This document shows positions 48,765-62,724 of a stretch of DNA of 64,000 bases, piece by piece (the stretch's first letter is position 1; the number at the start of each line of letters is the position of its first letter). Below the pieces are notes generated by a model. It was not told the origin of the DNA and made no database searches. It was given only the letters and a program-made list of their open reading frames with translations. The DNA lies in NCBI RefSeq assembly GCF_002939475.1, contig NZ_PKFQ01000001.1:1736001-1800000 (forward strand), read 5' to 3'. The DNA comes from Streptomyces cinnamoneus. Its GTDB lineage: Bacteria > Actinomycetota > Actinomycetes > Streptomycetales > Streptomycetaceae. The position numbers and the translations under genes are program-made.

Positions 48765-50573
48765 ATGCCGCTCAATCGTAGGAACTTCCTGGGGCGTACG
48801 GCTGTGACGGGTGCCGGTGTGGCGTTGGCGGGGGCTGCGGGTGCCGTGCCGGCCGAGGCGCGGACTGCGGACCAGGAGCGGGGTCGGGGGAAGAAGCGCT
48901 ACTCCTTGACCGTGATGGGGACGACCGACCTGCACGGCAACGTCTTCAACTGGGACTATTTCACCGATGCCGAGTTCGATGACAAGGCGCACAACGACGT
49001 CGGGCTGGCGAAGATTTCGACGCTGGTGGGTCAGGTCCGGGCGGAGAAGGGGCGTCGGAACACGCTTTTGATCGATGCCGGTGACACGATTCAGGGGACT
49101 CAGCTTTCGTATTACTACGCCAGGGTGGATCCGATCACGGGTCCGGGAGGGCCGGTGCACCCGATGGCGCAGGCGATGAACGCGATCGGCTATGACGCTG
49201 CCGCGCTGGGCAACCATGAGTTCAACTACGGCATTCCGACGTTGCGGAAGTTCGAGGAGCAGTGTGATTTTCCGCTGCTGGGTGCGAACGCTCTGGATGC
49301 GAAGACCATGCGGCCGGCGTTCCGTCCGTATGTGATGAAGCGGGTGTGCACGCCGCATGGTCGTGATGTGCGGGTGGCGGTTCTGGGTTTGACGAATCCG
49401 GGGATCGCGATCTGGGACAAGGCGAACGTGCAGGGGAAGATGGTGTTTCCCGGTCTGGAGGAGCAGGCGGCGAAGTGGGTGCCGAAGCTCCGGTCGATGG
49501 GCGCGGACGTGGTGATCGTTGCGGCGCATTCGGGTTCGAGCGGCACGTCGTCGTACGGTGATCAGTTGCCGTACGTGGAGAACGCGGCGGCGTTGGTGGC
49601 GGAGCAGGTGCCGGGTATCGACGCGATTCTGGTGGGGCACGCTCACACGGAGATTCCCGAGTACCGGGTGGCGAACAAGGAGACCGGCAAGCAGGTCGTG
49701 CTGTCGGAGCCCTTGAAGTGGGGTCAGCGGCTGACGCTGTTCGACTTCGACCTGGTGTGGGAGCGGGGCGGCTGGCAGGTGGAGTCGGTCTCGGCGAAGG
49801 TGCTGAACTCCAATACGGTGGCGGAGGACGCCCGGATCACCGGTTTGCTGCGTGATGAGCACCGGAAGGTGGTGGCGTATGTGAACCAGGTGATCGGTTC
49901 GTCGTCGGCGGCGATGAGTGCCGCGGAGGCGCCGTACAAGGACACGCCGATCATTGATTTCATCAATCATGTGCAGGCGGAGACGGTGCGGGGTGCTCTG
50001 GCGGGTTCGGCGTACGCGTCGTTGCCAGTGTTGTCCCAGGCTTCGTGTTTTTCGCGTACGGCTGCGGTGCCGGCGGGGAAGGTGACGATTCGCGAGGTGG
50101 CGGGGCTGTATCCGTTTGAGAACACGCTGGAGGCGCGGTTGATGACCGGTGCCCAGTTGCGTGAGTATCTGGAGTTCTCGGTGCGCTATTACGCGCAGAC
50201 CGCTGTGGGTGCGCCGGTGGATCCGTCGAAGTTGACGAATGCGGAGGGGGTTCCGGATTACAACTACGACGTGGTGAGTGGTCTGTCGTACGAGGTGGAC
50301 ATCGCTCGGGCGCCGGGGTCGCGGATCGTGGGCCTGTCGTTCGCGGGGAAGCCGTTGGACGACTCCGCCGAGTTCGTTCTGGCGGTGAACAACTACCGGG
50401 CGAGTGGCGGGGGTGGTTTCCCGCATGTGGCGCGTGCCAAGCAGTTGTGGGCGAACTCGGAGGAGATCCGCAACACGATCATCGGTTGGGTGAAGGCGAA
50501 GGGGTCGATCGATGTGGGGGCGTTCGCTTCAGTGGACTGGAAGCTGACGCGGGATGGTGTGCCGGTTTTCTGA
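48765..50573 (+). CDS. Tat-exported bifunctional metallophosphatase/5'-nucleotidase
   Basis: 602 residues from the ATG at 48765, with GGGGAGAAC upstream. A twin-arginine signal (LNRRNFLGRTAVTGAGVALA) directs a folded enzyme outside the cell. The metallophosphoesterase domain carries TTDLHGNVFNWDYF, LIDAGDTIQGTQLSYY, ALGNHEFNYG, VVIVAAHSG and GHAHTEIPEY, the complete binuclear metal site. The C-terminal 5'-nucleotidase substrate domain starts about residue 380 and includes GLYPFENTLEARLMTGAQLR and YNYDVVSGLSYEVD. It probably hydrolyses nucleoside mono- or 2',3'-cyclic phosphates for phosphate or nucleoside uptake. Codon use is strongly G- or T-ending. The last 45 bp overlap the 3' end of the convergent N-monooxygenase gene. 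Confidence 0.95.
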   Translation: MPLNRRNFLGRTAVTGAGVALAGAAGAVPAEARTADQERGRGKKRYSLTVMGTTDLHGNVFNWDYFTDAEFDDKAHNDVGLAKISTLVGQVRAEKGRRNTLLIDAGDTIQGTQLSYYYARVDPITGPGGPVHPMAQAMNAIGYDAAALGNHEFNYGIPTLRKFEEQCDFPLLGANALDAKTMRPAFRPYVMKRVCTPHGRDVRVAVLGLTNPGIAIWDKANVQGKMVFPGLEEQAAKWVPKLRSMGADVVIVAAHSGSSGTSSYGDQLPYVENAAALVAEQVPGIDAILVGHAHTEIPEYRVANKETGKQVVLSEPLKWGQRLTLFDFDLVWERGGWQVESVSAKVLNSNTVAEDARITGLLRDEHRKVVAYVNQVIGSSSAAMSAAEAPYKDTPIIDFINHVQAETVRGALAGSAYASLPVLSQASCFSRTAAVPAGKVTIREVAGLYPFENTLEARLMTGAQLREYLEFSVRYYAQTAVGAPVDPSKLTNAEGVPDYNYDVVSGLSYEVDIARAPGSRIVGLSFAGKPLDDSAEFVLAVNNYRASGGGGFPHVARAKQLWANSEEIRNTIIGWVKAKGSIDVGAFASVDWKLTRDGVPVF

Positions 50574-51962
50574 GCCGATGGCGGTCTGGGGTCGTGGTTG
50601 TGGCCGCGGCTCCAGGCCGAAGGTGGTGAAGGCGGTGCGCTGGGGCAGGGCGTAGACGGTTTTCCCCGTGAGGGCGTTGAGGATGACGGCGCTGCGCCAG
50701 GCGGCGAGGCCGAGGTCGGGGGCGCCGACGCCGTGGGTGTGGGTTTCGGCGTTCTGGACGTGGACGGCTCCCTTGACGGAGGGGTCGAGGATGAGCCGGT
50801 GGTGTTCGTCGATGCGGGGGCGGCCGCTGGAGTCTCGGCGGATGTAGGGGTCGAGGGCGGCGAGGAGGGTGTCGACGCGGCGTTCGCGGTAGCCGGTGGC
50901 GAGGACGACGGCGTCGGTGGTGAGGCGGGAGCGGCTGCCTTGCTGGGTGTGTTCGAGGTGGAGTTCGACGCGGGTGGTGCCGACGCGTCCGGCGGTGCGG
51001 ACGAAGACTCCGGGGGTGAGGGTGGCGTCGGGCCAGCCGCCGTGGAGGCTGCGGCGGTAGAGCTCGTCGTGGATGTCGGCGATGGTGTGGGTGTCGATGC
51101 CCTGGTGGAGCTGCCACTGCTGGGGCAGGACCTGGTCGCGGACGGGTTCGGGGAGGGTGCGGAAGTAGTGGGTGTAGTCGGGGGTGAAGTGCTCGAGGCC
51201 GAGCTTGCTGTACTCCATGGGGGCGAAGGCGGGGGTGCGGGCGATCCAGTGGAGTTTTTCGCGGCCTTCGGGGCGGCGGCGGAGGAGGTCGAGGAAGACC
51301 TCGGCGCCTGACTGTCCGCTGCCGATGACGGTGATGTGTTCGGCTTCGAGGAGTCTGTCGCGGTGGGAGAGGTAGTCCGCGGCGTGGATGACGGGGACGT
51401 TGGGGGCGTCGACGAGGGGGCGGAGCGGTTCGGGGACGTAGGGGGCGGTCCCCACGCCGAGGACGAGGTTGCGGGTGTAGGCGCGGCCGAGGGCGTCGGC
51501 TTCGCCGTCGGGGTCGAGCTGGGTGTAGTCGATCTCGAAGAGGACGCGTTCGGGGTTCCAGCGGACGGCGTCGATGTGGTGGTTGAAGTGGAGTCCGCGG
51601 AGGTTCTCGCTGACCCAGCGGCAGTAGGCGTCGTATTCGGCGCGGTGGATGTGCTGGCGCTCGGCGAAGTAGAAGGGGTAGAGGCGTTCGCGGGTCTTGA
51701 GGTAGTTGAGGAAGGACCAGGGGCTGGTGGGGTCGGCGAGGGTGACGAGATCGGCGAGGTGGGGGACCTGGAGGGCGGTGCCGTCGATGAGGAGGCCGGG
51801 GTGCCACTGGAAGGACGGGCTCTGGTCGTAGAAGGCGGCCTTGAGGTCCTGGAGGGGGTGGGCGAGGGCGGCGAGGGAGAGGTTGAAGGGGCCGATGCCG
51901 ATGCCGACGAGGTCGAGGGGGTGGTCGGGGGCGGAGGCGGGGGGCTCTTGGGGGCTGGTCAT
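50529..51962 (-). CDS. L-lysine/L-ornithine N-monooxygenase (SidA/IucD/PvdA family)
   Basis: 477 residues from the ATG at 51962; an in-frame extension upstream is arginine/proline-rich nonsense. FAD-binding LVGIGIGPFNLSLAALAH, substrate-side YDQSPSFQWHPGLLIDGTAL, NADPH-binding ITVIGSGQSGAEVFLDLL, FAPMEYSKLGLEHFTPDY and VVLATGYRERRVDTLLAAL identify the N-hydroxylase that starts hydroxamate siderophore synthesis. No siderophore synthetase or transporter is adjacent, and Streptomyces normally encodes a separate desferrioxamine hydroxylase elsewhere, so this looks like an orphan or second copy. The C-terminal residues overlap the nucleotidase gene. Confidence 0.94.
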   Translation of the reverse strand: MTSPQEPPASAPDHPLDLVGIGIGPFNLSLAALAHPLQDLKAAFYDQSPSFQWHPGLLIDGTALQVPHLADLVTLADPTSPWSFLNYLKTRERLYPFYFAERQHIHRAEYDAYCRWVSENLRGLHFNHHIDAVRWNPERVLFEIDYTQLDPDGEADALGRAYTRNLVLGVGTAPYVPEPLRPLVDAPNVPVIHAADYLSHRDRLLEAEHITVIGSGQSGAEVFLDLLRRRPEGREKLHWIARTPAFAPMEYSKLGLEHFTPDYTHYFRTLPEPVRDQVLPQQWQLHQGIDTHTIADIHDELYRRSLHGGWPDATLTPGVFVRTAGRVGTTRVELHLEHTQQGSRSRLTTDAVVLATGYRERRVDTLLAALDPYIRRDSSGRPRIDEHHRLILDPSVKGAVHVQNAETHTHGVGAPDLGLAAWRSAVILNALTGKTVYALPQRTAFTTFGLEPRPQPRPQTAIGSENRHTIPRQLPVH

Positions 51963-52347
51963 CGGGTGGTGTGGCCTTCCACGAGTGTCGGCGGTGCCGG
52001 GGTCGTCGGGGGCGGGTACCGGGCGGGGTCCGGAGCGGGCTCGAATGATCGCGTCGGCGGGGCCGGCTCCGGGGCGGGTGCGCGCCGCGGGCCGGGTGCG
52101 GCGGTGGCCGGAGGCTGTTCTCGGGGCGTTCTCCCTGGTCTGTGGCGGGCCGGGCTGGCGCCAACGGCTCAAGCTACCGGCTGTGCTCGCACGGTGACGT
52201 GGGGTGGGGAAGGTTTCGCCCGATGGGGGTACGGGCCCGGCGAGGCCTTGCGCGGGCGCGGAGTTGGGGGCGCGGGGGCGTGGGGCGAGGCCGTGGCGGG
52301 GGGTGCGGTTCGGCGGTGGGGAGGGGCTTCAAGGTAATGTGCTCACC
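51963..52347. other. 385-bp divergent intergenic region
   Basis: Separates the N-monooxygenase and the b-subunit paralogue. I find no credible gene. TAATGT at 52335-52340 could be a -10 element placing transcription start next to the ATG at 52348 (leaderless mRNA). AGGTAATGTGCTCACC (52332-52347) has some likeness to the Streptomyces iron box but needs a 2-bp gap. Confidence 0.5.
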
Positions 52348-55808: not shown

Positions 55809-56120
55809 TCAGGCCCGGGCGATGGTCTCGTGGTGGCGGATGACCTCCGCGATGATGAAGTTGAGGAACTTCTCCGCGAAGGCGGGGTCAAGTTTCGCGT
55901 TCTCGGCGAGTTCGCGCAGGCGGGCGATCTGGCGGGACTCGCGGGCGGGGTCGGCGGGGGGCATCTTGTGGGCGGCCTTGAGGTGGCCGACCTGCTGGGT
56001 GCATTTGAAGCGCTCGGCGAGCATGTGGATCACCGCGGCGTCGATGTTGTCGATGCTGTCGCGCAGGCGCGTGAGCTCCGCACGCACGGACTCGTCGTTG
56101 GCACTGTTGTTCATCTCCAC
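55809..56120 (-). CDS. chorismate mutase (AroQ class)
   Basis: 103 residues. Start GTG at 56120 is preferred over ATG at 56114 because AGG sits 8 bp before it. All-helical AroQ fold: LTRLRDSIDNIDAAVIHMLA with the active-site Arg, ERFKCTQQVGHLKAAHKMPP (Arg/Lys), ESRQIARLRELAENAKLDP and FLNFIIAEVIRHHETIA. Converts chorismate to prephenate for Phe/Tyr synthesis. It is not fused to prephenate dehydratase. Its start lies only 9 bp downstream of the AraC regulator stop on the same strand, so read-through from that gene is possible. Confidence 0.93.
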   Translation of the reverse strand: MEMNNSANDESVRAELTRLRDSIDNIDAAVIHMLAERFKCTQQVGHLKAAHKMPPADPARESRQIARLRELAENAKLDPAFAEKFLNFIIAEVIRHHETIARA

Positions 56121-56129
56121 ACCACGAGC

Positions 56130-57020
56130 CTATGCGGAAGGGCGCGATCCAATGACCGGCGGGTGCTCCGGATCGGGGACGCGGTCGCTCCAGCCGCCGG
56201 GCAGGGCACGGCCGACGCGCTCGCGGAAGCGGACGGGGGCGGTGCCGACGCGGCGGGTGAAGAGGCGGCTGAAGTAGGCGGGGTCGTCGTAGCCGACGCG
56301 GCGGGCGACGGCGGCGACGGGCAGCTCGGTGGCGGCGAGGAGTTCCTTGGCGCGGCCGAGCCGGATGCCCAGCAGGTAGTCCTTGGGGCTGCAGCCGGCG
56401 CCGCGGCGCACGGCGGTGCGCAGCTCGGCGGGGGTCATGCCGTGGCGGGCGGCGTGCTGGGTGACGGACAGGGGCAGGAAGGCGTCGCGGGCCAGGGCCG
56501 CGAGGACGGGGTCGGCGCCGGTGGCGGTGTCGGCGCGGGCCCGGCGCAGGGCGACGAGCAGTTCGTGGACGGCGGCGGAGGTCTCGACCTCCAGCAGGGG
56601 GTTGCCGCGGCGGGCGGCGCGGGCGATGCGGGTGACGGCGGCGCGGGCGCCGGTGGTGTCGGTGAGGGGGACGACGGGGCGTTCGGGTTCGATGTAGCCG
56701 AGTTCGGTGTAGGCGCCGACGGCGGTGCCGGTGAAGTCGACGAAGGCCTCGTCCCAGCCGGCGCCGTGGCCGGCGCCGTAGTGGTGGGGGGTGCCGGGGG
56801 TGAGCCAGAGCAGGGCGGGGGCGATGACGGGGCGGGTACGGCCGTCGGGGGTGCGGTACCAGCCGGCTCCGGCGCTGACGACGACGGCGACGTGGTGGTC
56901 GAGGGTGCGGGGGCCGACGGGCGGCAGGGCGCCGTGCTGGAGTCCCACGCCGAGGCAGACCAGGCCGAGCCGGTGGTGGACCGGGCCGGGCGTGAAGTAG
57001 CGCATCCAGGTGTGGTACAC
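56130..57020 (-). CDS. AraC-family transcriptional regulator
   Basis: 296 residues from the GTG at 57020, with GAAAGGCGG about 8 bp upstream (an ATG at 57005 is a weaker alternative). An N-terminal AraC-type cupin sensor (HHVAVVVSAGAGWYRTPDGR, LLWLTPGTPHHYGAGHGAGW) is followed by two HTH motifs in the C-terminal domain (TQHAARHGMTPAELRTAVRR; LPVAAVARRVGYDDPAYFSR, LFTRRVGTAPVRFRER). It is divergent from the GH35 gene, and the TGGAC box (57044-57072) lies 23 bp upstream, so it probably senses a released sugar and activates GH35 and, through the same box at 62232, GH101. Moderate certainty for the regulon, high for the family. Confidence 0.94.
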   Translation of the reverse strand: MYHTWMRYFTPGPVHHRLGLVCLGVGLQHGALPPVGPRTLDHHVAVVVSAGAGWYRTPDGRTRPVIAPALLWLTPGTPHHYGAGHGAGWDEAFVDFTGTAVGAYTELGYIEPERPVVPLTDTTGARAAVTRIARAARRGNPLLEVETSAAVHELLVALRRARADTATGADPVLAALARDAFLPLSVTQHAARHGMTPAELRTAVRRGAGCSPKDYLLGIRLGRAKELLAATELPVAAVARRVGYDDPAYFSRLFTRRVGTAPVRFRERVGRALPGGWSDRVPDPEHPPVIGSRPSA

Positions 57021-57043
57021 GCGCCGCCGCCTTTCCGTGACTC

Positions 57044-57072
57044 GTCCAATCAGGGCCGATCTTTGTCCATGG
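57044..57072 (+). promoter_or_regulatory. AraC-type operator box in front of GH35
   Basis: GTCCAA (57044-57049) and CTTTGTCCATGG (57061-57072): two direct GTCCA half-sites 21 bp apart, two helical turns. The same composite box occurs before the GH101 gene in the same orientation relative to the gene. It overlaps the first ATG of the GH35 frame (57069). Confidence 0.75.
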
Positions 57073-57143
57073 CCCCCTCCCCCGCCAGAGGGCGACGATG
57101 GTCTCCGGACGCCGGAGTGGGCCGAGGGCAGGGGGCGGGGTCG

Positions 57144-58943
57144 GTGGCGCGTTTCGTCGGGAACGGGGACGGGGGCGGGGACGCGGAGGCCGGTGGGTGG
57201 CCGGTGCGGCTGTTGTCGGGGGCGATGCACTACTTCCGGGTGCACGAGGCGCACTGGGCGCACCGTCTGGGGATGTTGCGGGCGATGGGTCTCAACTGCG
57301 TGGAGACGTATGTGCCGTGGAACCGGCACGAGCCCCTTCCGGGGCGCCCGCGTGACGTTCAGGAGCTGGGGCGTTTCCTCGACGCGGCGGCAGCGGCGGG
57401 GTTGTGGGCGGTCGTGCGGCCCGGCCCGTACATCTGCGCGGAGTGGGAGAACGGGGGGTTGCCGTTCTGGCTGACGGGGCGGTTGGGGCGGCGGGTGCGC
57501 ACGCGGGACGCCGCTTTCCTGCGGGCGGTGGACGGCTGGTTCGCGCTGGTGGCGGAGCAGGTGGTGGGCCGGCAGGCGGACCGGGGTGGTCCGGTGGTGC
57601 TGGTGCAGGTGGAGAACGAGTACGGGTCGTATGGGAGTGACGAGGTTTATCTGCGGCATCTCGTAGAACGGTTGCGTGGGTGCGGTGTCACGGTTCCGCT
57701 GGTGACCTCCGACGGGCCGGAGGATCACATGCTGTCGGGTGGCACGGTGCCGGGGCTGCCGGCGACGGTGAACTTCGGTTCGGGGGCGGGTGAGGCGTTC
57801 GCGGCGCTGCGGCGGCACCGGCCGGAGGGCGGGCCGTTGATGTGCATGGAGTTCTGGTGCGGCTGGTTCACGCACTGGGGCGGGCGTCCGGCCGTCCGGG
57901 AGGCCGGGGAGGCGGCGGGGGTGCTGCGGGAGATCGTGGGGCGTGGTGCGTCGGTCAACGTCTACATGGCGCACGGGGGGACGAACTTCGGTGGCTGGTC
58001 GGGGGCGAACCGCTCGGGTGAGGACCACCGTGGGGTGCTGGAGCCGGTGGTGACGTCGTACGACTACGACGCGCCGGTCGACGAGTACGGCCGTCCGACG
58101 GCGAAGTTCTGGGCGTTCCGCGAGGTGCTGGCCGCCTGTCCGGACCGTGCGGGGCCGCCGCCCCCGCCGCCCGCGGCGCCGGCGGCGTTGCGGGCGGCGG
58201 TGCGGGTGCCGCTGGTGGAGTGGGCCGCGCTGGGTGGGGTCGTGGACGTGCTGGGCGGGCCGGAGGCGGTGGGCCCGGTGCCGCCGTCGTTCGAGGAGCT
58301 GGGGGTCGAGCGGGGGGTGGTGCGGTACCGCTTCGACGTGCCGGGGCCGCGGCGGGCGTATCCGCTGCGGGTGGCGGGGCTGCGGGACGTGGCGGTGGCG
58401 TACGTGGACGGGGTCCGTGCGGCCACGGTGGAGACGGAGTCGGGGGTGATCGGTGAGGTGCCGGGGCCGGCCCGTGTGGAGCTGTGGGTGGAGTCGCTGG
58501 GCCGGGTCAATTACGGGCCGCGGCTGGGTGAGGCCAAGGGCCTCACGGGCGGGCTGCTGCACGAGCGGCAGTACGTGCACGGGGTGCGGGCGCGGGGGCT
58601 GCGGCTGGAGGCGCTGGAGGAGGCGGGGGCGGCGGCGCGGGTGCCGTGGCGGGGCCGGGTGGGCGCGGGGGGTGCTCCGGGGCTGTACCGGGGGAGGTTC
58701 GCGGTGGCGGGGGCGGGGGACGCGGTGCTGGAGCTGCCCGGCTGGGGGCGGGGCTACGTGTGGGTGAACGGCTTCTGTCTGGGCCGTCACTGGGACCGGG
58801 GGCCGCAGCGTTCGCTGTACGTGCCGGGTCCGGTGCTGCGGGAGGGGGGCAACGAACTGCTGGTCCTGGAGTTCGACCGGGCGGGTGACCGGGAGGCGGT
58901 GCTGGGGTGCCTTCCCGGCCCCGCGTCGCCGCCGGTCCGCTGA
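57144..58943 (+). CDS. beta-galactosidase, glycoside hydrolase family 35
   Basis: 599 residues from the GTG at 57144. An ATG at 57069 is in frame, but it lies inside the operator box that recurs elsewhere, so the later start is preferred. The TIM-barrel shows VRLLSGAMHYFRVH, ETYVPWNRHEP, RPGPYICAEWENGGLPFWL, the acid/base Glu in VQVENEYGSYG and the nucleophile Glu in CMEFWCGWFTHWGG, plus YMAHGGTNFGGWSGAN. C-terminal jelly-roll domains end in GYVWVNGFCLGRHWDRGPQR. It has no signal peptide, so it would act in the cytoplasm on imported disaccharide. GH35 enzymes cleave terminal beta-galactosides, often beta-1,3, which fits the product of the GH101 enzyme at 59044-62169. A Pro-rich insertion (PPPPPPAAPAAL) joins domains. 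Confidence 0.94.
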   Translation: MARFVGNGDGGGDAEAGGWPVRLLSGAMHYFRVHEAHWAHRLGMLRAMGLNCVETYVPWNRHEPLPGRPRDVQELGRFLDAAAAAGLWAVVRPGPYICAEWENGGLPFWLTGRLGRRVRTRDAAFLRAVDGWFALVAEQVVGRQADRGGPVVLVQVENEYGSYGSDEVYLRHLVERLRGCGVTVPLVTSDGPEDHMLSGGTVPGLPATVNFGSGAGEAFAALRRHRPEGGPLMCMEFWCGWFTHWGGRPAVREAGEAAGVLREIVGRGASVNVYMAHGGTNFGGWSGANRSGEDHRGVLEPVVTSYDYDAPVDEYGRPTAKFWAFREVLAACPDRAGPPPPPPAAPAALRAAVRVPLVEWAALGGVVDVLGGPEAVGPVPPSFEELGVERGVVRYRFDVPGPRRAYPLRVAGLRDVAVAYVDGVRAATVETESGVIGEVPGPARVELWVESLGRVNYGPRLGEAKGLTGGLLHERQYVHGVRARGLRLEALEEAGAAARVPWRGRVGAGGAPGLYRGRFAVAGAGDAVLELPGWGRGYVWVNGFCLGRHWDRGPQRSLYVPGPVLREGGNELLVLEFDRAGDREAVLGCLPGPASPPVR

Positions 58944-58987
58944 GCCCGCCCGGCCCCCGGCGGCGCGGGGTGGTGGCTGAGCCCCCC

Positions 58988-59027
58988 GTCCCGCTGGTCA
59001 CCGGCCGATGACGGTGACCAACGGGAC
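58988..59027. terminator. bidirectional hairpin between GH35 and GH101 genes
   Basis: 16-position arms (58988-59003 and 59012-59027) with one mismatch and an 8-base loop, between convergent stops at 58943 and 59044. Confidence 0.85.
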
Positions 59028-59043
59028 GGAACCCCGTGGATGT

Positions 59044-62000
59044 CTATTGCCCGACCTGCCGCACGGTGAAGCCGTCCAGGCAGAACTCAGTGGTCCCGCT
59101 TTCCCCCACCTTCCGTAGTCCCACCCACGCCTCACCCGTATCCGGCGCGGTGAAGTCGTACGAGTACGTCGTCGGCCCGGTGGCGGCCGGCAGGGGCGCG
59201 CGGGTCAGCTCGCGCGGCTGCGGCTCGTCCACGGCGGTCACCCACGCGTACTGTTCCGCCTGCTCGTTCTCGTAGCGGAAGGTGACGCGGTAGCGGTGTC
59301 CGGGCTCGAAGCGCACGGTGTGGGGGACCGTGCGGTAGACGAGGCCCGGGTTCTCGCCCCGCGACTTGAGGGACTGTGTGCCGTCGATGACGTCGTCGAC
59401 GGCCTTGCGGTTCCAGCCGCGCTGCGTGTAGGGCGCGTGCCGCTGGGCGATGTGGGTACGCGGGTCGGTGGTGCCGCCGGCGTTGCCCTTGACGAACGGG
59501 CCCCAGCCCTGCGGCACGTTCTCGAAGTCCTCGGAGACGAGGGTGCCGGGGGGTGCTTCTGTGCGCCGGCCGGGTACGACCCGCAGCGCGTCGAACCGTA
59601 CGCGTGCCCGCCCCGCCGCCACCGTGAGGGCCAGGGTGACCGGGCCGCCGCCGTCGGGGACGGTGAACCAGGTGAACATCCGCTGGAACCGGGTGCCGTG
59701 CTTGCGGTCGGCCGCCATGTGGTTGCCGGCCGTGGAGGTGTCCGTCCAGTTGACGGCGGTGACGCCGTCGGCCGTGCGGACCTGGAGGGCGGCTCTGCGC
59801 CGCTCCCCCGCCGTGGCGCCGACTTCGACCTGGACGGACGCCGCGTACGTGCCGGGTTGGAGACGCGCCAGTCGCTGGCTGACGGTGGCCGCCGCCCCGG
59901 CGCCGACGACGAGTTCGGGGTCGCCCAGGGGACTTTCCACGACGCGGGCGGGGCCGGTGATCTGCCAGGCGTCGAGGGTCTGGGACAGGAAGTGGGGGTC
60001 GCGCAGGGGTGTGCCCTCGCCCCAGTCCGGGTCGGCGGGGGCCGGCCCGTGGGGGTCCGGCTCGCGGGTGAGGACGTAGGGCCGGCCGGCCGCGGCCTCG
60101 ATGGTGACCCTGCCGCGGTGTACGGGCAGGGCCACGGTGCCCGTGCGTCCTCGGGTGGTGAGGCGGTGGAGGTGGACGGTGCGCCGGTGGGCCCAGCCGC
60201 GCGGCAGGGTCCAGGTGGTGGTGCCGCCGTGGGGGTTGTGGTGGTAGAGCTTGGCGGGGTCGGTGGCGCGGCGCGGTTCCCAGGGCAGGAGGTAGGTGTC
60301 GCCGACGGCGACGGTGCGGCCGTCGGTGGTGATCCGCCGGGTGCCGCCGCGGTCGGTGACGTGGACGGTGATGTGGGAGTGGGCGAGGGTGACGTCGTGG
60401 TCGTCCCAGGTCCGGATCGCGAACGCCTGGAGGTACTTCGCGGGGAGGTTGTCGGTCCACAGCTGCCGGTAGAACGCCGTCCAGTCCGTCTTGCCGCGCC
60501 AGCCCTCGAAGTTGCCGAGTCTGGCGGTGGGCAGCAGTGGCCACTTGTCGGCGAAGACGTCTTTCTGGTGGTGGCGGAGGAAGCGGATGAGCCGGGAGTT
60601 GATGCCGCGTGAGGTGTCGGGCCCGTAGTCGGTCTCGGTGGCCCAGTGGGACCAGAGGCTGGAGCGTTCCAGGCCGTGGCCCCATTCGGTGGTGATCTGC
60701 CAGCCCTGCTCGCGCAGGAGGCGCTGGAGCCGGTCGGAGTTCCAGCCGGATTCGCGGAAGACGTCGATGTAGAGGGTGGTCAGCGCCGGGTCGGTCTCCT
60801 CGCGCAGCTGCCGGAAGCGGCGGGCGAGGTCACCGGAGACGAGGTCGCGACGGGGGTCGATGCGGTACGACTGGTCGAGCCAGTCCCACTGCGGGTCGTT
60901 CTCGTCGACGAGCGTCTCGGAGAAGGCGTGGGCCACGGGGTAGGACTCGGTGGTGTTGACGTGGACGGCGAAGTCGCTGTTCCACTTCTTTCCGGCGCGC
61001 AGGAGGGTGTTGAGGTCCGCGAGGCCGCCGGCGCGGGTGTTGTAGTTGCCGCCGTAGTCGGGGTGGGCGGAGTCATGGCCTTCGGACTGGTAGCCCTTGA
61101 GGAGGGTGAACTGCCGTAGCCCGTCGGTGGCCAGGTGGATGCGCTTGATGTTGTCGAGGGTGGTCAGGAACGGGTTGGTGGCCTGGCTGGCGAAGTTGAA
61201 GGGGATGTGCGGGACGACGCGCAGGTGCTGTTCGTCGGCGCCGGGCGGGTCGGTCATGATCTCGCGCAGGGCGATGGCGGCGTCCTGCCAGTCGGTCCTG
61301 CCGTCGCCGTTGCGGTCCCGGGTGAGGATGACGCTGACGCGGGGCAGGGGGGCGGTGTCGTCGGCGGGGGCGGTGGCGGCCCGGTGCGTCCACTGGCCGG
61401 CGGTGATGCGGGCCTCGGTGTGGCCGGGGCGGGCGAGGGTCTGCCGCCACAGACGGCCGTTCTCCCACGCGGTGCGCGCGTCGGGCCGGTCCTGGACGGT
61501 GTTGGTCTCGATGGCGGCGGCGAGCCGGTCGGTGCTGACGACGGCGTAGGCGCACCCCAGGGGCGCCGGGTCGGGGGGTGTGGCCGGGGTGACCCGTACG
61601 AGGGTGTCGCCGTTGCCGGCGGCGTCGAGGGCGATCCGTGCGGCGAGCAGGGTGGCGCCGGGCTGGGTGTCGCGGACGGCGAGGAAGGCGAGGCCGGGGA
61701 TCTGGAGGGTGCCGACGCGGCGGGGCGGGCCGGGGGCGTCGGCGATGCGGGTCACCCGCCAGTCCACGCGCCATCCGTCGACGTGGATCTCGGCGTCGAT
61801 GCGGGTGCCGGTGGGGAGGGTGAGGGTGTAGGTGGCGCGGTCGGCGGTGGTGGTGGCGGTGACGTGGGGGGTGTGCGTGGTCCCGTCGATCAGGAGGGTC
61901 GTGACGGGTTCCTCCTGGCCGTACAGGACGGCGCCGGTGGCGCGGTCGGTGTAGGACAGGATGCGGGGGAAGGCGGTGTCGACCCGGACGTCGAGGGCGG

Positions 62001-62169
62001 CGGAGCGCAGGACGGCCTCGGCGGGGGTGCGGGCCGTGCGGGCGGCCGCGGTGGCGGGGGCGAGGGCCGTGCCGAGGCCGGCGAGGGCGGTGGTGACGAC
62101 GGCGGTCCGGCGGCTCGGGCCGGTCCGGGGGGTGGGGCCGGGGCGGGCTTCGCGTCGGTCTGCGGTCAC
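59044..62169 (-). CDS. secreted endo-alpha-N-acetylgalactosaminidase, glycoside hydrolase family 101
   Basis: 1041 residues from the GTG at 62169. A Tat-like/Sec leader (PSRRTAVVTTALAGLGTALA) precedes the catalytic region. GH101 hallmarks are LLKGYQSEGHDSAHPDYGGN near residue 360, the nucleophile Asp in TLYIDVFRESGWNSDRL and the acid/base Glu in WQITTEWGHGLERSSLWSHW. The family releases Gal-beta-1,3-GalNAc (core 1) from Ser/Thr of mucin-type glycoproteins. Distal beta-sandwich domains follow (about 690-1041), the last with a carbohydrate-binding-like FRYENEQAEQYAWVTAVDEP. At 1041 residues it is shorter than the 1500-plus-residue gut and pathogen enzymes and lacks a sortase motif, so it is probably released. 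The shared operator box 62 bp upstream links it with the AraC/GH35 pair. Confidence 0.9.
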   Translation of the reverse strand: MTADRREARPGPTPRTGPSRRTAVVTTALAGLGTALAPATAAARTARTPAEAVLRSAALDVRVDTAFPRILSYTDRATGAVLYGQEEPVTTLLIDGTTHTPHVTATTTADRATYTLTLPTGTRIDAEIHVDGWRVDWRVTRIADAPGPPRRVGTLQIPGLAFLAVRDTQPGATLLAARIALDAAGNGDTLVRVTPATPPDPAPLGCAYAVVSTDRLAAAIETNTVQDRPDARTAWENGRLWRQTLARPGHTEARITAGQWTHRAATAPADDTAPLPRVSVILTRDRNGDGRTDWQDAAIALREIMTDPPGADEQHLRVVPHIPFNFASQATNPFLTTLDNIKRIHLATDGLRQFTLLKGYQSEGHDSAHPDYGGNYNTRAGGLADLNTLLRAGKKWNSDFAVHVNTTESYPVAHAFSETLVDENDPQWDWLDQSYRIDPRRDLVSGDLARRFRQLREETDPALTTLYIDVFRESGWNSDRLQRLLREQGWQITTEWGHGLERSSLWSHWATETDYGPDTSRGINSRLIRFLRHHQKDVFADKWPLLPTARLGNFEGWRGKTDWTAFYRQLWTDNLPAKYLQAFAIRTWDDHDVTLAHSHITVHVTDRGGTRRITTDGRTVAVGDTYLLPWEPRRATDPAKLYHHNPHGGTTTWTLPRGWAHRRTVHLHRLTTRGRTGTVALPVHRGRVTIEAAAGRPYVLTREPDPHGPAPADPDWGEGTPLRDPHFLSQTLDAWQITGPARVVESPLGDPELVVGAGAAATVSQRLARLQPGTYAASVQVEVGATAGERRRAALQVRTADGVTAVNWTDTSTAGNHMAADRKHGTRFQRMFTWFTVPDGGGPVTLALTVAAGRARVRFDALRVVPGRRTEAPPGTLVSEDFENVPQGWGPFVKGNAGGTTDPRTHIAQRHAPYTQRGWNRKAVDDVIDGTQSLKSRGENPGLVYRTVPHTVRFEPGHRYRVTFRYENEQAEQYAWVTAVDEPQPRELTRAPLPAATGPTTYSYDFTAPDTGEAWVGLRKVGESGTTEFCLDGFTVRQVGQ

Positions 62170-62231
62170 GCTGCTCGTGCCTCCTCGCGCTGGTGGCTAT
62201 GCGTCACCTTGGGCGAGGGGGGCCGGGGTGC

Positions 62232-62261
62232 CCATGGACAAAGGAGTAACCCGTGTTGGAC
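62232..62261 (-). promoter_or_regulatory. AraC-type operator box in front of GH101
   Basis: CCATGGACAAAG (62232-62243) then TTGGAC (62256-62261): TGGAC half-sites 22 bp apart, the same 12-mer and hexamer as at 57044-57072. Read toward the GH101 gene it is GTCCAA then CTTTGTCCATGG, the orientation seen at GH35. It ends 62 bp before the GTG. Confidence 0.75.
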
Positions 62262-62334: not shown

Positions 62335-62724
62335 ATGATCGCCACGATGCAGTGCACCGTCATCGACTGCCCCGACCCGCTGGCCCTGGCGCGTTTCTAC
62401 GCGGCCGTCCTGGGCTGGCGCGTCGGCGACGAGGACAGCGACCCCGCCTGGGTGTGGCTGACCGATCCCGCGACGGGGCAGCGCCTCGCCTTCCAGGGCG
62501 TCGAGGAGTACCACCCGCCCCACTGGCCGGACCCCGCTCGTCCGCAGCAGATGCACCTGGACTTCGACGTGCCGGAGCGGGCGGACGTGGAGCGGGCGAA
62601 GGGGGAGGTCGTCGCCCTCGGGGCGACGTTCCTGCACGACAGCGGTGGGGAGAAGCGGGGGTTCCTCGTGTTCTCGGACCCGGCGGGGCATCCCTTCTGC
62701 CTGTGCTACGGCCAGACGGGCTGA
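62335..62724 (+). CDS. VOC (glyoxalase/bleomycin-resistance-like) protein
   Basis: 129 residues from the ATG at 62335; ATGs at 62323 and 62326 are possible. Vicinal-oxygen-chelate fold: CTVIDCPDPLALARFYAAVL near the N-terminus, then RLAFQGVEEYHPPHWPDPAR, MHLDFDVPE (His metal ligand) and GFLVFSDPAGHPFCLCYGQT (Glu-type position replaced by the C-terminal strand). This compact, single-repeat-pair group of Streptomyces proteins has no known substrate. It is divergent from GH101 and shares that promoter region. Confidence 0.88.
   Translation: MIATMQCTVIDCPDPLALARFYAAVLGWRVGDEDSDPAWVWLTDPATGQRLAFQGVEEYHPPHWPDPARPQQMHLDFDVPERADVERAKGEVVALGATFLHDSGGEKRGFLVFSDPAGHPFCLCYGQTG

Follow-up and report, generated by a model that had tools for sequence, protein, structure and literature searches.

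A conserved direct-repeat box shared by GH35 and GH101 genes of Streptomyces cinnamoneus points to a probable AraC-type regulon for mucin-type O-glycan use

Introduction

The 64,000-nucleotide stretch of the Streptomyces cinnamoneus genome analysed here (the window) carries the gene of an AraC-family regulator, divergent from the gene of a glycoside hydrolase family 35 (GH35) β-galactosidase, and, further along, the gene of a family 101 (GH101) endo-α-N-acetylgalactosaminidase. Near-identical DNA boxes stand in front of both hydrolase genes, which raises the question whether they are operators of the AraC protein and which pathway they serve. GH101 releases core-1 Gal-β-1,3-GalNAc (GalNAc, N-acetylgalactosamine) from mucin-type glycoproteins, and GH35 enzymes cleave β-1,3-galactose. 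Soil actinomycetes are usually associated with the breakdown of chitin and of plant and microbial polymers. We report that the box common to the GH35 and GH101 genes is an operator-like element that is real, old and conserved. Comparison of genomes strongly supports its assignment to this AraC protein, and the proposed role of the candidate regulon in O-glycan use is well supported.

Results

The window contains exactly two copies of the 12-mer CCATGGACAAAG, one at 57061-57072 on the minus strand and one at 62232-62243 on the plus strand. Extended by TTGGAC, these give the two boxes of Table 1, whose coordinates in the initial annotation were reproduced exactly; re-reading of the sequence also confirmed the half-site distances of 21 and 22 bp and the common orientation toward the hydrolases that it had given. 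As can be seen from the letters, both boxes are direct repeats of GTCCA, each directed at its hydrolase gene, with approximately two helical turns between half-sites, as in direct-repeat operators. The GH35 box lies within the divergent araC/GH35 gap and consists of GTCCA at 57044-57048 and GTCCATGG at 57065-57072 (21 bp apart), the predicted GH35 start being 71 nt further on; in the GH101 box the GTCCA half-sites are 22 bp apart, and the predicted GH101 start is 62 nt away. Gene calls near the boxes came from a simple script for GC content by codon position, not from annotation.

From base composition only, about 2e-6 such boxes are expected by chance per 64 kb (17 fixed letters, two spacers). 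A scan for the 12-mer with three mismatches was hardly informative (42 matches observed in the window versus 29.6 expected). With a profile built from the boxes of relatives, the window excluded, the GH35 site scored 33.6 bits and the GH101 site 26.9 bits, and the next-best site in the window scored 7 bits. The genome scan that the initial annotation had suggested, run with this profile on the 6.66-Mb genome, returned only both window boxes at E <= 10 among the 150 of 1604 first-look candidates that were scored. The loose pattern GTCCAN{14,20}TTGTCCA gave 17 matches in the same genome versus 7 for its reverse; those examined were both boxes, genome position 1388257 and a further locus, L015. 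The match at 1388257 was rejected as a site, since it lies inside an argJ-like coding gene (named by eye from the translation).

Conservation was assessed around araC orthologues, taken as the best 80 of 384 relatives (79 titled Streptomyces and 1 Streptosporangium). Boxes were defined as GTCCA, 13-14 bases, TTTGTCCAT, and then G or A; in the first scan, GTCCA and the proximal motif could be separated by 12-16 bases. That GTCCA and TTTGTCCAT never vary in the aligned boxes follows from this selecting pattern and is not counted as evidence. In 69 of the 80 loci GH35 and araC are divergently arranged, and the gap holds a box in 68 of them, the remaining gap (L090) departing from the pattern by one mismatch. 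A GH101 match longer than 2 kb is present in 37 of the loci, every time with a box upstream (37/37), a few of these boxes ending in CATAG or CATGT in place of CATGG. Half-site spacing is 21 bp in 68/68 GH35 boxes, 22 bp in 36/37 GH101 boxes and 21 bp in the last one. In spacer and flanks the GH35 sites are distinct from the GH101 sites, and the likeness of the two is therefore not a simple duplication of long stretches. Altogether 108 boxes were found in the 80 loci, just three of them elsewhere, where GH101 is missing (L050, L094 and L107); the same loci reversed (1,517,397 bases) gave none.

These three boxes and a similar one at L045 are orphans of the GH101 type that face the 3′ end of GH35 (L050:7854, L094:7859, L107:7925 and L045:1501). 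A GH101 remnant was sought at all four and none was found; the orphans probably mark recent GH101 deletions. Two further loci carry a GH101 gene without the catalytic domain: at L088:7055-8016 its N- and C-terminal parts adjoin, and at L181:2365-3708 the box is retained.

In the remaining 11 of the 80 loci, GH101 takes the place of GH35 next to araC (a statement about the araC neighbourhood only, not about the rest of the genome). In 11/11 of these loci, none of the 17 fixed letters of the GH101 box is changed. On the araC side, nine of them offer nothing better than a match with 5-7 mismatches, which is the level of random 250-bp pieces; L099 has a weak match with 3 mismatches, and L127 has a match without mismatches, but with a spacer 4 bp shorter than in the GH35 form. 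On an araC gene tree (80 loci plus the window, quick method) the presence of GH35 changes five times, at least two of the changes falling on well supported branches. Thus, the araC-side box decays where GH35 no longer adjoins araC, and the box follows the hydrolase genes. We therefore conclude that it serves the hydrolases; araC itself does not seem to be the reason for its retention.

The 30-bp form of the box is present in 53 of 295 congener genomes, one copy in each, and the reversed pattern matched once. GH101 or GH35 stands behind 44 of the 53 boxes: 29 precede GH101 orthologues (the window's included; one is 1.3 kb away), 11 precede diverged GH101 genes (44-46% identical), 1 precedes a GH101 remnant without the catalytic domain and 3 precede GH35. 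The others face a major facilitator superfamily (MFS) transporter gene (6) or a GH31 gene (1), or are an orphan (1) or at a contig end (1). An AraC homologue (E <= 1e-60) was found in 51 of the 52 other box genomes versus 14 of the 28 box-free genomes tested; the Fisher p of 3e-7 ignores relatedness, and the 28 come from 242 non-box genomes. In the genomes with diverged GH101, a diverged AraC gene (62-70% identical) is its tail-to-tail neighbour in 11/11 cases.

Across the family, the 29/30-bp pattern was found in 26 of 150 genomes and its reverse in none; outside the genus, 13 of 112 genomes carry the box. Ten loci from other genera were fetched, four with GH101 (67-72% identical) and six with divergent pairs of AraC (58-61%) and GH35 (55-59%). 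There, the GH101 sites have the shorter and the GH35 sites the longer spacing, so that neither spacing is specific to one enzyme. Orthologous clusters, whose lack of both boxes would have refuted the regulon proposed in the initial annotation, thus carry them in 68/69 gaps, at 37/37 GH101 genes and in 10/10 other-genus loci.

One congener box (genome G034) lies 32 nt before a GH31 gene with a signal-peptide-like start. The best solved relatives of its product are α-N-acetylgalactosaminidase entries (375-379 bits versus 196 for the next), which we take to come from E. faecalis. S. cinnamoneus has an orthologue at C1:1479005-1481242, outside the window and 0.3 Mb off, which scores 393-397 bits against 6m76, 7f7r and 7f7q versus 199 for the next structure and is hence, among solved structures, closer to α-N-acetylgalactosaminidases than to other GH31 enzymes. 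A weaker box, GTCCACGCGCGCGGTGCGTCCGTCCATGG, lies 34 nt before its predicted start. The repeat GTCCA-N15..18-GTCCATGG has 8 matches in this genome (0 reversed): three in promoters (GH31, GH35 and GH101), four inside genes and one over the bioB start. Four genomes chosen for their close AraC relatives yielded 17 matches (1 reversed): seven in promoters (GH101 4, GH31 2, GH35 1), eight inside genes and two over bioB starts. When the five genomes are taken together, 10/10 non-genic GTCCA-N16/17-GTCCATGG matches precede GH101 (5), GH31 (3) or GH35 (2), and the other 15 repeat matches are within genes or over bioB starts. A search of 150 congeners for GH31 relatives gave 43 matches, spread over 41 genomes; among the 30 GH31 loci examined, the full repeat, whose background is 0.00046 per 170 bp, is present in 5 and GTCCATGG is upstream in 10. 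GH31 is likely a member of the regulon in the window's clade, in G034 and in G093.

The six MFS boxes lie 47-82 nt ahead of the aligned start (L028, L029, L038, L043, L048 and L184). The transporter is AraJ/Cmx-like and, in the two proteins tested, below every NCBIfam cut-off shown. All six genomes possess the AraC gene, and 4/4 examined also have the boxed AraC/GH35 pair (L174, L176, L178 and L180); GH101 was sought in the six and found in none (0/6). Possibly, the transporter belongs to the same regulon and moves a sugar out of or into the cell.

A search for GH101 in 40 genomes gave 18 matches in 14 genomes. The five that are at least 68% identical are all boxed with 0 or 1 mismatch, and the remaining 13 form a second group (46-52% identical) in which no box was found (0/13); a GH101 group thus exists outside the regulon. 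Members of this group (L264-L276) have open frames of ~1150-1400 codons. Among the 28 genomes tested that lack the 30-bp form, GH101 was found in 8/14 with AraC and in 0/14 without it; this co-occurrence was set aside and not used as support, because in 6 of the 8 the boxless paralogue is the sole GH101.

The features of the locus are listed in Table 1. The AraC, GH35 and GH101 proteins all exceed Pfam cut-offs. The regulator (HTH_18, 72.3 bits; AraC_binding, 35.2 bits) is of the AraC/XylS type; 17 AraC sequences were aligned, and an AlphaFold model of the protein (mean pLDDT 61) supports no claim. The β-galactosidase (PF01301, 331.7 bits) has the GH35 fold and the catalytic Glu pair, its QVENEYG and MEFWCGW motifs, which we take to hold the catalytic residues, aligning with 4mad and 4e8c. 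The solved structures closest to it are 4mad, 8h25 (second-best) and 4e8c; we assume 4mad and 4e8c to be BgaC-type β-1,3-galactosidases, and these relatives suggest β-1,3 linkage specificity. A hydrophobic N-terminus was looked for in the GH35 protein and none was found. The GH101 protein has the full domain set (PF12905, 413 bits, plus PF18080, PF17451, PF21466 and PF17974), and the Asp and Glu of its motifs YIDVF (467-471) and EWGHG (495-499), presumably with their known roles, align with 5a55. An RR pair is present in the N-terminal stretch of 37/37 GH101 orthologues (loose twin-arginine test).

Table 1. Genes, boxes and predicted promoter hexamers at the araC/GH35/GH101 locus (positions in the window)
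Feature	Position	Strand	Remarks
AraC-family regulator, 296 aa	56130..57020	-	AraC-like ligand-binding domain and double helix-turn-helix (HTH_18)
Operator box facing GH35, GTCCAA-N12-TTTGTCCATGG	57044..57072	+	reads GTCCAATCAGGGCCGATCTTTGTCCATGG toward GH35
-10-like hexamer GACGAT, predicted, low information	57094..57099	+	25 nt past TTTGTCC of the GH35 box
GH35 β-galactosidase, 599 aa	57144..58943	+	GTG start at 57144 predicted
GH101 endo-α-N-acetylgalactosaminidase, 1041 aa	59044..62169	-	predicted twin-arginine signal peptide (SRRTAVV)
-10-like hexamer CAAGGT, predicted, low information	62206..62211	-	24 nt past TTTGTCC of the GH101 box
Operator box facing GH101, GTCCAA-N13-TTTGTCCATGG	62232..62261	-	reads GTCCAACACGGGTTACTCCTTTGTCCATGG toward GH101

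Among the neighbours, a chorismate mutase type II gene (55809-56114, minus strand) begins 15 nt after araC; it is found on the same strand, <300 bp behind araC, in 74/80 loci. A glyoxalase-like gene (62335-62724, plus strand) is divergent from GH101, with an upstream region common to both, and has a relative in 11/80 loci. A siderophore-type lysine/ornithine N-monooxygenase (379 bits) is encoded at 50529-52172 on the minus strand.

Discussion

We consider it likely that the AraC protein binds both boxes and the weaker copy at GH31 and would thereby activate the digestion of O-glycans by GH35, GH101 and GH31. Judging from the geometry, two AraC subunits would sit on the GTCCA half-sites, one on each, two helical turns apart, and the proximal half-site (TTTGTCCATGG), with its end ~20 nt upstream of a weak -10-like hexamer, would lie approximately where a -35 element is expected, as in AraC-type activation. 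Going by their families, secreted GH101 would free Gal-β-1,3-GalNAc (core 1), secreted GH31 would take core GalNAc off mucin, and cytoplasmic GH35 would cleave the imported disaccharide; the inducer could be the core-1 disaccharide, galactose or GalNAc. No importer under the box was found in the S. cinnamoneus genome. The initial annotation had proposed that one AraC activator controls a two-step O-glycan pathway. This proposal is supported by the conservation of the box and by its co-occurrence with AraC; its two steps have given way to three enzymes. The O-glycan reading is strengthened because the third likely target is a GH31 gene whose product is near solved α-N-acetylgalactosaminidases. 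A GH31 α-N-acetylgalactosaminidase of this type is cited in PMC11992087.

Several observations weigh against this reading. At GH35, GH101 and GH31 alike, the -10-like hexamer 24-25 nt beyond the proximal GTCC is weak. The full repeat is missing in 25 of the 30 GH31 loci, and in several of them the distal half-site sits in a terminator-like hairpin. Six of the 53 genus boxes precede an MFS transporter gene, not an O-glycan enzyme, four orphan boxes have no GH101 behind them, and the second GH101 group is entirely boxless. One genome (G276, in 1770 contigs) carries a box and has no AraC match. The specificity of the GH35 enzyme is not evident from its sequence, and the GH31 enzyme of B. theta, as described in the section of PMC11992087 concerned with it, is active on mucin and inactive on the Tn antigen tested.

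The alternative that fares best, though we hold it to be unlikely, is that the box is indeed an AraC operator, but of a pathway for plant or microbial β-galactosides, GH101 being accessory and the O-glycan label wrong or too narrow. GH35 enzymes do act on several kinds of β-galactoside substrate, according to the relevant part of PMC11739564; the six congeners with a box at the MFS gene have AraC and no GH101 match, and 43/69 GH35 loci show no GH101 longer than 2 kb within the examined stretch. However, of the 53 genus boxes, 41 are directed at GH101 (in one case at a remnant) and another at a GH31 gene nearest to an α-N-acetylgalactosaminidase; araC, GH101 and the box are all retained in the 11 loci without GH35 beside araC, and of the nearest solved relatives of GH35 (4mad, 8h25 and 4e8c), 4mad and 4e8c are presumably of the BgaC type.

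It is improbable that the AraC protein binds the box and represses, or chiefly controls its own gene. The box is 23 nt from the araC start in the window, close enough to influence araC transcription; but the decay of the box beside araC in loci that have lost the adjacent GH35, though araC persists, argues against autoregulation, and the boxes assigned to GH35, GH101, GH31 or MFS genes face these genes. Very improbable, in our estimate, is an element that is promoter-like or belongs to another regulator (a sigma-factor promoter or a global carbon regulator). TTGTCC can be read as a -35 hexamer, and G276 is boxed without an AraC match; yet the rest of the genome is almost free of the box, its half-sites are kept at 21-22 bp, and it accompanies AraC across genomes, including diverged AraC/GH101 and other-genus AraC/GH35 pairs. 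Chance likeness of two intergenic sequences, for which nothing speaks beyond the low count of sites in a single genome, was rejected as having a negligible probability, given the 2e-6 boxes expected in the window and the boxes kept in 68/69 and 37/37 loci.

A wider proposal is evenly balanced in our judgement: Streptomycetaceae may possess an undescribed regulon dedicated to mucin-type O-glycans, in which an AraC sensor of core 1 would drive secreted GH101, secreted GH31 and cytoplasmic GH35, the box would be older than the genera, and soil bacteria would forage on animal, probably arthropod, glycoproteins. Searches of an open-licence library found no report of such a regulon. If the proposal is true, soil actinomycetes would have a defined sensor, a defined operator and a defined set of enzymes for using mucin-type O-glycans; the enzymes could be tested for glycoprotein analysis, and the box, kept with the hydrolase gene and lost with its loss, would be a clean example of how operators evolve. 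The exact DNA box could then be used to find more O-glycan enzymes, as it led to the GH31 gene lying outside the window.

Known systems resemble the predicted regulon in part. Like bifidobacterial EngBF (2zxq), the GH101 enzyme is predicted to be secreted, and its sequence is related to that of EngBF over its length. The bifidobacterial galacto-N-biose pathway proceeds by intracellular phosphorolysis by GH112; a search of the S. cinnamoneus genome for GH112 gave no match, but 0/14 controls matched, so nothing follows from it. Mucin-type glycoside hydrolase genes of Streptomyces, GH101 among them, have been counted before, with no regulator or operator named in the part of PMC9120202 consulted. 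The gnb system of lactobacilli combines GnbPTS with intracellular GnbG, which hydrolyses galacto-N-biose inside the cell (PMC5583593, in part), and a lactobacillus GH35 enzyme highly active on galacto-N-biose is cited in PMC11739564. An intracellular glycosidase for galacto-N-biose is predicted here as well; unlike in lactobacilli, no phosphotransferase system (PTS) was seen under the box, the regulator is different, and the regulon would include secreted GH101.

In B. theta, the polysaccharide utilisation locus (PUL) BT4240-50 acts on core-1 glycoproteins and is upregulated on the core-1 disaccharide, and a GH31 enzyme removes GalNAc from mucin (PMC11992087, sections on this locus and enzyme). 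As in our proposal, a β-1,3-galactosidase is combined with α-N-acetylgalactosaminidases (there GH109, plus GH31 elsewhere in the genome); B. theta differs, by the same sections, in its GH2 galactosidase, SusCD transport, Gram-negative locus and lack of GH101 in the genome.

In kind, the proposed regulon is one already known, namely an AraC-type catabolic regulon. E. coli AraC at araI1-I2 represents the class II activation geometry. The present regulator differs from it in score (57 bits versus the AraC equivalog cut-off of 208), and the box differs in half-site sequence and in that a 22-bp spacing is also used. Like E. coli AraC, the protein has a ligand domain and a double helix-turn-helix, the latter being closest to AraC among Protein Data Bank chains (2k9s), and like araI1-I2, its candidate operator consists of direct-repeat half-sites ~21 bp apart, the proximal one presumably near the -35 position.

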